A stretch of DNA of 64,000 nucleotides, from positions 1-64,000 of the forward strand of contig JAJFJS010000100.1 of assembly GCA_021773815.1 (NCBI GenBank), given 5' to 3'. A program made the translations under genes and the position numbers. Of the stretch, positions 20,793 through 24,845 are shown in pieces. Source of the DNA: Gammaproteobacteria bacterium (GTDB taxonomy: Bacteria; Pseudomonadota; Gammaproteobacteria; Steroidobacterales; GCA-2729495). Within the stretch, counting starts at the first letter, position 1, and each line of letters starts with the position of its first letter. Under the pieces are notes generated by a model that was given only the letters and a program-made list of their open reading frames with translations, had not been told where the DNA came from and did not search any database.

Positions 20793-20931
20793 CCGTTTCC
20801 CCGGTTGGTCCTTTTCGGCGTGCTAATATCGCCGCCGCGGCGCATTTTACACGAGTTTTCATGAAACCATGAGTCGGTGCGCCGGCCGGGCGACCCTGCG
20901 CGACCGGAAAACCGCCACCGTGAGCGCCCCG

Positions 20932-21561
20932 ATGTCCGCATTTTCAGATGCCCGCTTCCTGACCAGCGCCAACGCGCCCGCCGGATTTGCCGACGATCAG
21001 GGCACGGAAGTGGCGTTCGCGGGCCGGTCGAACGCCGGTAAATCGACGGCGATCAATACCATCGTTCACCGCAAAAATTTTGCCCGGACCAGCAAGCAGC
21101 CCGGCCGCACGCAGTTGGTCAACTTTTTTAGCCTCGGCGCAGACCGACGGCTCGTCGATTTGCCCGGCTACGGGTATGCGAAGGTCGGCCCCTCGATGCG
21201 CCGCCACTGGCAGAAACTGCTGGAGACCTATTTTCGGTCGCGCCGTTCGCTGGCCGGCACCATCATCGTCGTCGACAGCCGCCGGTCGCTCGGCGAATAC
21301 GATCGGCTGATGCTGGACTGGTGTCGGTCGCTCGACTGCCCGGTACACGTGTTGCTGACCAAGGCCGACAAGCTGAATCGTCGCGACGGGGCTGCGGCCC
21401 TGGCCGGCGCGCGGGCCGAACTCGGCGAGACGGCGACCGTGCAGCTTTTTTCGGCGACCGCGGGCACCGGGGTCGAGGAGGCGCGGAAGCGGCTGCAGGC
21501 CCTGTTGGGGGGAGCCCGGAAATCCCACCCACCCGCTGACGGCGGGGCGGTGGGAAACTGA
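20932..21561 (+). CDS. engB: Ribosome-biogenesis GTPase YihA/EngB
   Basis: EngB is an essential GTPase in assembly of the large ribosomal subunit. Seen are G1 (FAGRSNAGKS), the switch I region (TSKQPGRTQLVNFF), G3 (DLPGYGYAKV) and G4 (LLTKADKLNR). From ATG 20932 the N-terminus (SDARFLTSANAP) aligns with the family's; GTG 20920 is an alternative. The 3' end carries a short variable tail. The gene is convergent with polA, with the candidate small RNA between them, an arrangement shared with E. coli and Pseudomonas. Confidence 0.93.
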   Translation: MSAFSDARFLTSANAPAGFADDQGTEVAFAGRSNAGKSTAINTIVHRKNFARTSKQPGRTQLVNFFSLGADRRLVDLPGYGYAKVGPSMRRHWQKLLETYFRSRRSLAGTIIVVDSRRSLGEYDRLMLDWCRSLDCPVHVLLTKADKLNRRDGAAALAGARAELGETATVQLFSATAGTGVEEARKRLQALLGGARKSHPPADGGAVGN

Positions 21562-21915: not shown

Positions 21916-21955
21916 AAAAAAACCCCGGACAGCGCGGGGAGCGCTGCCCGGGGTT
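21916..21955 (-). terminator. Rho-independent terminator of the small RNA
   Basis: A 15-bp stem with one G-U pair (21921-21935 with 21941-21955), a 5-nt loop and a run of seven U on the minus strand (A-run at 21916-21922). The U-tract is only on the minus strand, so it ends the small RNA and any polA readthrough and does not terminate engB. Confidence 0.85.
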
Positions 21956-22018
21956 CAGGATAACCGGTTTGGGGGGACCGGTTGCAATGCCCGCTTAGGG
22001 AGGATAGCGGGACTTATT
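21916..22018 (-). ncRNA. Candidate small RNA between polA and engB
   Basis: A strong promoter on the minus strand is followed by about 103 nt that fold into three hairpins and end in a textbook terminator. Hairpin 1 (21990-22011) has a 6-bp stem CCCGCU/AGCGGG and the loop AUCCUCCCUA. Hairpin 2 (21962-21983) has a perfect 7-bp stem AACCGGU/ACCGGUU and the loop CCCCCCAA. Hairpin 3 is the terminator, with loop UCCCC. No ORF is present. All three loops are C-rich and loop 1 is complementary to strong Shine-Dalgarno sequences, suggesting a translational repressor. Spot 42 (E. coli) and ErsA (Pseudomonas) occupy the same polA-engB position; sequence homology to either is not claimed. Confidence 0.75.
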
Positions 22019-22023
22019 CGGTG

Positions 22024-22051
22024 ATTATGATACACGTTTAGAACGTGTCCA
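22024..22051 (-). promoter_or_regulatory. Sigma70 promoter of the small RNA
   Basis: Reading the minus strand, TGGACA (22046-22051) and CATAAT (22024-22029) each match consensus at 5 of 6 positions and are 16 bp apart. Transcription is predicted to begin near 22018. The promoter lies just 32 bp past the polA stop codon. Confidence 0.7.
22032..22048. promoter_or_regulatory. Operator-like palindrome inside the small-RNA promoter
   Basis: ACACGTT (22032-22038) and its exact reverse complement AACGTGT (22042-22048) flank TAG. The palindrome fills the spacer between the -35 and -10 elements and overlaps the -35, the usual place for a repressor site. The binding protein is unknown. Confidence 0.55.
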
Positions 22052-22088
22052 AACAAATAAGTTCCCGACTGCGGCGGGCGTTCTGCGC

Positions 22089-24845
22089 TCAGTGGGCTTC
22101 GTCCCAGTTCGCGCCGGTGCCGGCATCGACCCGTAGCGGGACGCGCAGCACCGCGGCCCGGCTCATCAGGTCGACGACCTGTGCGCGGACGTCATCGATC
22201 TGGTCCCGGTGCACTTCGAGGACGAGTTCGTCGTGCACCTGCATGATCAGCCGGGCATCGACCCGGCTGTCGGTCAGCCAGCGGTCGACCGTGATCATGG
22301 CCTTCTTGATGATGTCCGCAGCCGTGCCCTGCATCGGCGCGTTGATCGCGCTGCGTTCCGCGTACTGGCGACGCTGCGCCTGGCGTGCGTTGATGTCGGG
22401 CAGATACAGGCGCCGACCGAATACGGTTTCGACAAACCCGGTCTCGTGCGCGCGTTCGCGTGTGGAGTCCATGTACTGTTTGACGGCGGGATAGCGCCCG
22501 AAATACAGGTCGACATATTCCTGCGCCTGGACGCGGTTGATGCCGAGCTGGCGACCGAGCCCGAACGCGGACATGCCGTAGATCAGCCCGAAGTTGATCG
22601 CCTTGGCCGAGCGACGCTGGTCCGCCGTCACGTCGTCGAGCGGCACGCCGAAGACCTCGGCGGCGGTCGCCTGGTGAATGTCCCGATTTTCGCCAAACGC
22701 GGTGAGCAGCCCTTCGTCTTCAGAAATATGCGCCATGATGCGCAATTCGATCTGCGAATAATCGGCGGCCAGCAGTACGTAATCGTCCGGGGCGATAAAT
22801 GCCTGGCGAATGCGGCGTCCTTCCTCGGTGCGGATCGGGATGTTCTGCAGATTCGGATCCGAAGATGACAGTCGCCCGGTCGCGGCGACGGCCTGATGAT
22901 AAGACGTGTGAATGCGTCCGGTTCGGGGGGCGATCTGTTGCGGGAGTTTGTCGGTATAGGTCGATTTGAGTTTGGCCAGGCTGCGGTAATCAAGAATCAG
23001 CTGTGGCAGTTCGTAGTCCGCGGCCAGTTCGCTCAGTACGTCCTCGGCCGTCGACGGCTGACCCTTCGGCGTCTTGCGCAGCACCGGTAGTTTGAGTTCG
23101 GTGAACAGGATCTCCTGGAGCTGTTTCGGCGAGGCGAGGTTGAACGGGTGACCGGCAACCCGGTGCACGTCGGCCTCGACCGCGGCCATTTGCTCGGCGA
23201 ACTCATGGCTGAGCCGGCGCAGCAGCGGCGCGTCGACGAGCACGCCGTTGTCTTCTGTGCGCAGCAGCACCTCGACGAGCGGCTGTTCGATGTCGGTATA
23301 AACTGCGGCGAGCGAGCCGGTCGCTTCGATCTGCGGCCATAGCGCGGCGTGCAATCGCAGCGTAACGTCGGCATCTTCGGCGGCATAGGGCGCGGCCGTT
23401 TCGATCGGCACCTCGTCGAACGAGAGCTGTTTGGCGCCTTTGCCGGCGACATCCTGGTACCGAATCGTCTGTAGTCCCAGGTATTGGCGCGCGACCGAAT
23501 CGAGATCGTGGCGCGTCGCCGTGCTGTTGAGCACATAGGACTCGAGCATCGAGTCGTAGCGCATGCCGGCCAGGCGGATGCCGTAGTTGCCCAGCACGTG
23601 GGCATCGTATTTCAGGTGATGGCCGACCTTGGCGCGTTCCGGATTCTCGAGCCATGGCCGCAGCTTTGCCAGCACGGTATCGCGGGACAGCTGTTGCGGC
23701 GCGCCCGGATAGGTATGCGCGACGGGCACATAGGCGGCCCGGCCGGCCGCCACGGCGAGCGACAGGCCGACGAGTTCGGCAGCCATGTAATCGATGCTGG
23801 TCGTTTCGGTATCGAAGCCGACGAGTTCGGTGCGCTCGATGTCGCGCAGCCAGTCGTCGAGTTGTGCCTCGGTCCAGATCACATCGTAGTCGGTCGATGC
23901 CGCTTCGGCCGATGTCACGGCCGCGCCGACCGCCGGTTCCGGATCGCCGAGCGCGTCGAGCAGCCGGCGCAGTTCGAGATGCTCATACAGGCTGCGCAGC
24001 GTATCGACATCGGGCGGCTGCGCGTGCAACGCATCGAGTGTCGTGTCCAGTTCGACCTCGAGTCGAATGGTCGCCAGGTCCCGGGACAACAGCAGTGTTT
24101 CGCGGTGCTCCTCGATGCGTTGCGCCAGCGACTGGGCGCCGCGGATGGACAATCCGGTGACGGCATCGAGGTCCGCGAGCAGGTCATCGATGTGGTCGAA
24201 ATGGGCGAGTAGTGCGACGGCGGACTTCGGGCCGACCTTGGGTACGCCCGGAATATTGTCGGAACTGTCGCCGACCAGCGCGAGGTAATCGATGATCTGA
24301 TCAGGGCGTACGCCGAAACGTTCGACGACGCCGGCCGCGTCGGTTGCGCGCGGTGTCCGGTTCGGTCCGCGTGGCATCGTGTCGAGCAGCGTGACATCGG
24401 CCGAGACCAGCTGCGCCATATCCTTGTCGCCGGTCACGATCGTGACTGCCATGTCCGCGGCCGTCGCCTGTCGCGCGAGCGTGCCGATGACGTCGTCGGC
24501 CTCGACCCCCTCGACGCGCAACAGCGGCCAGCCGTTGGCCGCGATCGCCTCGAGCAAGGGTTTGACCTGCTCGCGGAGCGCGTCGGGCATTGACGGCCGA
24601 TTGGCCTTGTAGGCGTCGAACAGGTCGTCGCGGAACGTCCTGCCCGGTGCGTCGAAGACGATGGCGAATCGTTGCGGCGCTTCTTCCCGCAGCAGCTTGT
24701 GCAGCATCGACAGCACGCCGTGAATTGCGCCGGTGGGTTCGCCGGCCGAATTTGTCAGCTCCGGCAGGGCGTGAAACGCCCGGTACAGGTACGACGATCC
24801 GTCGACGAGGATCAGCGACGGCTTCTCGGGCGGTGCGCCGGTCAT
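22089..24845 (-). CDS. polA: DNA polymerase I
   Basis: The 918-aa protein has all three PolA domains. The N-terminal 5'-nuclease starts LILVDGSSYLYRAFHAL. The 3'-5' exonuclease shows an intact FDTETTS near residue 344 and AAEDADVTLRL, so proofreading should be active. The polymerase shows motif A (YSQIELRIMAH, about 695), motif B (RRSAKAINFGLIYG, about 750) and motif C (QVHDELVLE, about 868). It fills gaps and removes RNA primers in replication and repair. It is the last gene of the minus-strand run from argR, starting 5 bp after the lipoprotein gene. Confidence 0.96.
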   Translation of the reverse strand: MTGAPPEKPSLILVDGSSYLYRAFHALPELTNSAGEPTGAIHGVLSMLHKLLREEAPQRFAIVFDAPGRTFRDDLFDAYKANRPSMPDALREQVKPLLEAIAANGWPLLRVEGVEADDVIGTLARQATAADMAVTIVTGDKDMAQLVSADVTLLDTMPRGPNRTPRATDAAGVVERFGVRPDQIIDYLALVGDSSDNIPGVPKVGPKSAVALLAHFDHIDDLLADLDAVTGLSIRGAQSLAQRIEEHRETLLLSRDLATIRLEVELDTTLDALHAQPPDVDTLRSLYEHLELRRLLDALGDPEPAVGAAVTSAEAASTDYDVIWTEAQLDDWLRDIERTELVGFDTETTSIDYMAAELVGLSLAVAAGRAAYVPVAHTYPGAPQQLSRDTVLAKLRPWLENPERAKVGHHLKYDAHVLGNYGIRLAGMRYDSMLESYVLNSTATRHDLDSVARQYLGLQTIRYQDVAGKGAKQLSFDEVPIETAAPYAAEDADVTLRLHAALWPQIEATGSLAAVYTDIEQPLVEVLLRTEDNGVLVDAPLLRRLSHEFAEQMAAVEADVHRVAGHPFNLASPKQLQEILFTELKLPVLRKTPKGQPSTAEDVLSELAADYELPQLILDYRSLAKLKSTYTDKLPQQIAPRTGRIHTSYHQAVAATGRLSSSDPNLQNIPIRTEEGRRIRQAFIAPDDYVLLAADYSQIELRIMAHISEDEGLLTAFGENRDIHQATAAEVFGVPLDDVTADQRRSAKAINFGLIYGMSAFGLGRQLGINRVQAQEYVDLYFGRYPAVKQYMDSTRERAHETGFVETVFGRRLYLPDINARQAQRRQYAERSAINAPMQGTAADIIKKAMITVDRWLTDSRVDARLIMQVHDELVLEVHRDQIDDVRAQVVDLMSRAAVLRVPLRVDAGTGANWDEAH

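Follow-up and report, generated by a model that had tools for sequence, protein, structure and literature searches.

A small RNA gene with C-rich loops and a sigmaE-type promoter motif between polA and engB, probably belonging to a class-wide family with ErsA, sX13 and anti-hemB

What is encoded in the gap between polA and engB of this gammaproteobacterial genome, and does it have relatives elsewhere? The window, that is, the whole stretch of 64,000 nucleotides analysed here, had been interpreted before from its letters alone, and this sequence-only reading proposed an undescribed small RNA (sRNA) in the gap, perhaps of a new sequence family, as the positional counterpart of Spot 42 and ErsA. 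It has already been noted that polA loci of other bacteria encode sRNAs, the alpha-r7 ones having three stem-loops with C-rich motifs, and the authors of sX13, who found its gene only in Xanthomonadaceae, asked if other bacteria have sRNAs at the polA locus and if those of related structure act alike (available excerpts of PMC3771888). In the present work the gene anatomy, the conservation, the covariation, the loop conservation, the promoter motif and the rpoE, rseA-like, rseB-like and hfq genes were computed. We conclude that the window RNA is probably the product of a stand-alone gene for a trans-acting regulatory sRNA, ortholog by position and covariance model of ErsA, sX13 and anti-hemB, for which we propose a sigmaE mechanism.

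Both neighbours of the RNA match NCBIfam equivalog models above cut-off: polA, coding for DNA polymerase I, lies upstream on the same minus strand (22089..24845; TIGR00593 and NF004397), and the GTPase gene engB/yihA is the convergent neighbour on the plus strand (20869..21561; TIGR03598). With these genes on either side, the positional comparison with ErsA, an RNA of the polA-engB intergenic region, was upheld. Between them the predicted fold and the covariance model R1, described below, point to an RNA gene of about 115 nt on the minus strand (21916..22031) with three hairpins and a U-run terminator. According to the predicted fold and the alignment, hairpin 1 (21990..22011, minus) carries the loop AUCCUCCCUA (22005-21996) on a 6-bp stem and hairpin 2 (21962..21983, minus) the loop CCCCCCAA (21976-21969) on a 7-bp stem; hairpin 3, the intrinsic terminator (21916..21956, minus), has the loop UCCCC (21940-21936) and is followed by U7 (21922-21916). 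The two shorter stems, the loops and the U7 are as they had been read from the letters, but the third stem, given there as 15 bp, has 16 bp in the predicted fold. The three stable hairpins are not a matter of chance: the RNA has a minimum free energy of -52.1 kcal/mol, dinucleotide shuffles average -29.8 (sd 3.0; z -7.5), and none of the 200 shuffles is as good. The absence of a reading frame was likewise borne out; the RNA contains no AUG, on which ground a coding sequence was rejected, and the sole ORF of at least 60 aa touching 21916-22051 (22045-22494, plus) does so at the margin only.

The promoter had been assigned to a sigma-70-like TGGACA-N16-CATAAT (22024..22051, minus), giving an RNA of about 103 nt. 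This site is present, with its 16-nt spacer and 10 of 12 consensus positions, and it overlaps a sigmaE/AlgU-type promoter, for which the motif search located the -35 element GGAACTT (22059..22065, minus) and, 16 nt from it, the -10 element TCTAA (22038..22042, minus). GGAACTT-N16-TCTAA (22065-22038, minus), which we take to be the sigmaE/AlgU consensus, has one match in the window against 0.00 expected. The 100 nt 5' of the RNA were compared in 129 homologous regions; left out of this set were L003 and L167 (repeats of L095), L162 and L082 (window), L111 (repeat of L110), the third copy in L010, one further copy each in L146 and L149, and the off-locus matches L020 and L048. Of these 129 regions 79 carry the strict motif GAACTY-N15-18-TCNNW and 50 lack it, compared with 0.5 occurrences per mononucleotide-shuffled set; three repeats had remained among the 129, and after their removal 77 of the 126 distinct regions carry it. 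With a relaxed motif the count rises to 107 of 129 (1.7 in shuffles). Sigma-70-like sites are present in 5 of the 129 regions, and mononucleotide shuffles give 4.6 on average, therefore the TGGACA-N16-CATAAT promoter, although present in the window, is not conserved and was rejected. Since the sigmaE-type -10 element stands at 22038..22042, the start of the RNA is placed at about 22031, so that its length is probably about 115 nt rather than 103.

Some relatives show variations at the promoter position. GAACC is accompanied by a CATAAT box in L090 and L093; in L094 and L127 the GAACY motif is missing and a GATAAT box is present. These four look as if the promoter had drifted from the sigmaE type towards the sigma-70 type; in L086, L087 and L105 a palindrome-like TTAGACC...TCTAA was seen within the sigmaE-type promoter.

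The genome has its own rpoE, which matches the RpoE model with 276 bits, above the cut-off; GAACTT-N16-TCTAT sits 72 nt before the start of this match, and the neighbouring frames carry RseA_N and MucB_RseB domains. Hfq is also found above cut-off in the genome. For the transcription of the window RNA, its control by sigmaE, its pairing and its targets we propose the following, judging from these motifs and from analogy with the known RNAs. The RNA is probably switched on by cell-envelope stress, which would free sigmaE from RseA; sigmaE would then transcribe the RNA from GGAACTT-N16-TCTAA and the terminator hairpin would end the transcript. From their rigid stems the C-rich loops could form kissing interactions with G-rich motifs, Shine-Dalgarno or enhancer, in several mRNAs; where such a G-rich ribosome-binding site is accessible, this pairing would lower translation, possibly with Hfq.

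The conservation of the gene was followed with R1, a covariance model built from 16 relatives, the seed rows retained out of 42 hand-marked sequences. Hairpin 3 of the window and that of L083 were misaligned in the first alignment, and both sequences were kept out of the seed. The window scores 72.2 bits with this model, which was not trained on it (E 1.9e-14 in 722 kb), and in this respect it fits the proposed family of C-loop sRNAs of the polA-engB locus; its locus is the best R1 place found in the 3.87 Mb genome, the next one reaching 32.9 bits. polA was found in every one of the 60 genomes that represent the genus, the family and the order (the own one included), and an R1 match lies behind it in 46 (own and 16 seed genomes included), or in 30 of 44 with the seeds removed (window included). 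Such a search of related genomes had been suggested by the sequence-only reading, which named the loss of stems and loops in relatives keeping polA-engB synteny as the observation that would speak against it. The RNA is present in 44 of the 51 genomes in which engB was detected in the fetched stretch beside polA (own included), and in 2 of the 9 in which it was not; this outcome does not speak against the reading.

Fourteen of the 60 genomes are without an R1 match behind polA. Seven of these have engB beside polA, and four of the seven loci leave no room for the RNA, their gap measuring at most about 30 nt; in one of the fourteen the contig ends 78 nt after polA. Another of the fourteen, the congener G003, has no R1 match at its polA locus (L084), where a promoter-like stretch and the apparent start of hairpin 1 are followed by unrelated sequence and engB was not detected; the RNA seems to have been lost there recently. 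When 80 polA loci of named contigs were searched, an R1 match was found behind polA in 24 at E <= 0.001 and in 43 at E <= 1, and engB is present in 37 of the 56 loci that have no match at the stricter threshold, therefore the gap often holds something that R1 does not recognise. The search gave 48 R1 match rows (window included), 46 of them behind polA; the remaining two have E values of 0.31 and 0.67. Two further features were observed in relatives: an extra hairpin is predicted 5' of hairpin 1 in L085-L087 and L089-L094, and a c-di-GMP-I riboswitch above the Rfam cut-off lies on the upstream side of polA in L096 (4632-4718).

Hairpin 1 starts 77 nt past the polA stop codon on the same strand, and the structure ends in a strong U7 terminator, a situation in which the whole might be merely the terminator or 3' UTR of polA, its upper hairpins being functionless or processed from the polA mRNA. 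We hold this to be quite improbable in view of the covariation. In alignment A4 (60 distinct sequences) all 24 pairs have changes on both sides and 96.5% of the cells are paired; the covariation score is 0.490 against 0.182 in shuffled alignments, and none of 500 shuffles reaches any of five measures. In the second set, alignment A3 with 46 sequences, compensatory changes were found in 23 of the 24 pairs and 93.0% of the cells are paired. Sliding the partner by one column halved the pairing. Both alignments were fitted to the model, which favours structure, but the shuffled and slid controls lie far off, so the stems are indeed kept among the relatives. A terminator needs one hairpin, whereas here hairpins 1 and 2 covary as well and their loops rank with the best-conserved positions. 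The promoter motif that recurs between polA and the RNA, the tandem copies (L200 and L205 each have four full-length model matches) and the loci elsewhere at which the RNA adjoins engB without polA in the fetched flank also argue against a mere polA 3' end, and for the stand-alone gene.

The loops of the RNA had been described as exposed and pyrimidine-rich, and they proved to be conserved: CCC is present in loop 1 of 60, in loop 2 of 52 and in loop 3 of 46 of the 61 alignment rows, against a single row with GGG in any loop. The loop of hairpin 1 is the most conserved, contains CUCCC in 57 of the 61 rows and bears an anti-Shine-Dalgarno-like CCUCC. Mean conservation amounts to 1.40, 1.26 and 1.05 bits per position in the three loops and to 0.14 and 0.34 in the two linkers. 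Since the loops are conserved and C-rich while the linkers drift, selection seems to act on the C-rich loops, which would fit a pairing with purine-rich ribosome-binding sites. In the target scan with loop 1 in the own genome, GGGAGGA was found before ATG at 31 sites against 10 for the reversed pattern, a difference that Shine-Dalgarno use alone would explain. Among the 30 of these 31 sites that were read, the strongest predicted duplex falls on a transposase-like gene present in three copies (named by eye); other candidates are a TonB-receptor-like gene and an argB-like kinase, likewise named by eye, and the scan does not separate any of these candidates from ordinary Shine-Dalgarno sequences. 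The hfq gene has a GGGG about 77 nt ahead of its start codon, inside the span searched in the sX13 study and not at the ribosome-binding site.

Is the RNA then a new one? No Rfam family matches at the gathering cut-off in the whole window, and the same holds for this RNA in 16 order-level relatives and in 20 class loci; four Pseudomonas-type loci checked with Rfam were all called ErsA, therefore the search works. With a lowered threshold on a 321-base stretch, where the cut-offs of the near families are 49.5-58.8 bits, scores of 32-33 bits on the right strand were obtained for four families, all below cut-off: alpha-r14/ar14 (RF02344; 33.1 bits, cut-off 58.8), anti-hemB (RF02837; 32.3 bits, E 5.8e-6, cut-off 49.5), Pseudomon-1/ErsA (RF01719; 32.2 bits, cut-off 50) and sX13 (RF02232; 32.0 bits, cut-off 50). 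Since it stays below the cut-offs of ErsA, sX13 and anti-hemB, the window RNA is filed as their homolog and as a member of none. Over the 3.87 Mb genome the ErsA model has its best place at the window locus (32.2 bits, E 2.9e-4; next 14.8) and the anti-hemB model its only place at E <= 0.001 (E 1.6e-5); the sX13 model, run with stricter filters, had no match in the own genome at E <= 0.001, and the ErsA model gave none at this threshold in 14 control genomes. The words undescribed and new sequence family were accordingly too strong, as covariance models link the RNA to sX13, ErsA and anti-hemB.

The reach of R1 was examined in wider samples. At E <= 0.001 it is positive in 136 of 369 genomes of the class, and 27 of the 29 class loci fetched adjoin polA and/or engB. 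In the phylum sample 19 of 398 genomes are positive, 18 of them from the window's own class; 9 of the 19 loci from this search have neither polA nor engB within the fetched flank, therefore the family also has members elsewhere. The Rfam models lead to the same kind of places. Nine of the 12 fetched anti-hemB loci above cut-off adjoin polA and/or engB, and in the 50 genomes at the top of the table, compared with one place per genome (four second places left out), at least 45 of the best anti-hemB places are also R1 places among the matches listed. Nine of the 12 loci from the sX13 search adjoin polA and/or engB too, and at least 8 of the 13 genomes with a below-cut-off ErsA match have it at an R1 place, again among the matches listed.

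These coincidences bear on the alternative that the gap is just a permissive site at which C-loop sRNAs arose independently, the window RNA not being homologous to ErsA or sX13. The cross-scores are indeed modest, around 32 bits where cut-offs of about 50 apply; with R1 the three true sX13 loci reach only 22-25 bits, and the 49.5-bit, sX13-like locus L199, which adjoins polA, is not matched at all; C-rich loops alone raise scores, as ar14 of Alphaproteobacteria reaches 33.1 bits; and Spot 42, in the same place, is not significantly matched. Against this stand the agreement of the anti-hemB, sX13 and ErsA searches with R1 places or the polA-engB locus, the rank of the window locus with the ErsA model, and a second model. 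R2 was built from the 61 rows of A4, all from genomes outside families f28 (sX13) and f175 (ErsA), the only families with sX13 or ErsA above cut-off in those model searches. In a 675-kb search it finds 25 of 27 Pseudomonas-type loci directly behind polA with 20-36 bits (four of them checked against Rfam, all overlapping ErsA), the three true sX13 loci with 31-33 bits and L199 with 47.4 bits. Independent origin is in our judgement unlikely, and the window RNA seems to belong to a class-wide family that also holds ErsA, sX13 and anti-hemB.

Several genomes have more than one copy of such an RNA. Full-length model matches stand in tandem in L200 (G228) and L205 (G335), four in each, and repeated copies close together were seen in L010 (three) and in L105, L146, L149 and L251 (two each); the copy number seems to have risen several times. 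The window's own genome also has a second, weaker C-loop hairpin RNA (G000:C88:10054-10146; L163, 1501-1593 plus; 32.9 bits with R1, 37.7 with R2), which lies between an HDOD-like gene and flgN/flgM-like genes, named by eye, and is possibly a paralog tied to motility.

A kinship with Spot 42, the other counterpart named at the outset, has to be judged separately. Spot 42 (spf of E. coli K-12) shares the place and the orientation between polA and yihA/engB, and within 4 kb of E. coli sequence both models, run with filters off, have their best place at the 3' part of spf: R1 with 10.8 bits and E 0.03, R2 with 14.8 bits and E 0.0046 in that stretch alone, so a remote tie may exist. Over the 675-kb search set the same R2 match has E 0.77, which is not significant, and it covers the terminator end of spf; the recurrent promoter here is of the sigmaE type, while Spot 42 is reported to be controlled by CRP. 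The positional part of the first claim was thus retained but no significant sequence tie was found over the search set, and a Spot 42 homolog with a role in carbon metabolism is, to our estimate, extremely improbable. The RNA ncS35 was also considered and set aside as unrelated; in the excerpt of PMC5760752 its connection is solely a cited title on Spot 42.

Returning to the sigmaE-type sRNA with kin in ErsA, sX13 and anti-hemB, we consider it likely that these three, together with very many unlabelled RNAs, form a single ancient sigmaE-driven sRNA family with anti-Shine-Dalgarno-like C loops, kept at polA-engB across much of Gammaproteobacteria (in the GTDB sense) and sometimes in tandem. The new part is the class-wide family joining separately catalogued RNAs. 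ErsA, sX13 and anti-hemB stand in Rfam as separate families without a clan, and no report uniting them was found in the open-licence literature searched. If the proposal is true, the envelope-stress response would have in this family a conserved RNA arm, and in lineages such as that of E. coli its place would be taken by Spot 42, a different or much-changed RNA. SigmaE control and a C loop acting on G-rich ribosome-binding sites make up a common control and a common mode of action that can be tested, therefore findings made in one species could be transferred to others.

Compared with the known systems, the window RNA resembles ErsA in its place in the polA-engB gap (excerpt of PMC8575079) and in its stem-loops with C-rich loops, and differs in that the Rfam model of ErsA is unpaired where the window has hairpin 1. 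In the excerpt of PMC7565897 ErsA is strictly dependent on the envelope-stress factor sigma22, the functional counterpart of sigmaE, and to this may correspond the sigmaE-type motif that is present in the window and recurs in the homologs. ErsA acts, in the excerpts, on several mRNAs, needing Hfq for anr and not for amrZ. With sX13 of Xanthomonadaceae the window RNA shares the position downstream of polA, the three stems and the three C-rich apical loops, which in sX13 were tested in Xanthomonas and repress mRNAs through G-rich motifs near start codons without Hfq (excerpts of PMC3771888); the three true sX13 loci differ in having no clear sigmaE motif, at best degenerate forms as judged by eye. 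In anti-hemB, known from Burkholderia as ncS04, a 105-nt transcript for which the authors cite Hfq binding (excerpt of PMC5688073), hairpin 1 agrees almost base by base with that of the window; unlike the window RNA, some members lie beside engB without polA in the fetched flank, the comparison covering loci other than the Burkholderia one itself. The alphaproteobacterial RNAs alpha-r14 and alpha-r7 have C-rich loops as well, and alpha-r7 resembles the window RNA further in lying at polA and in having three stem-loops (excerpts of PMC3771888).
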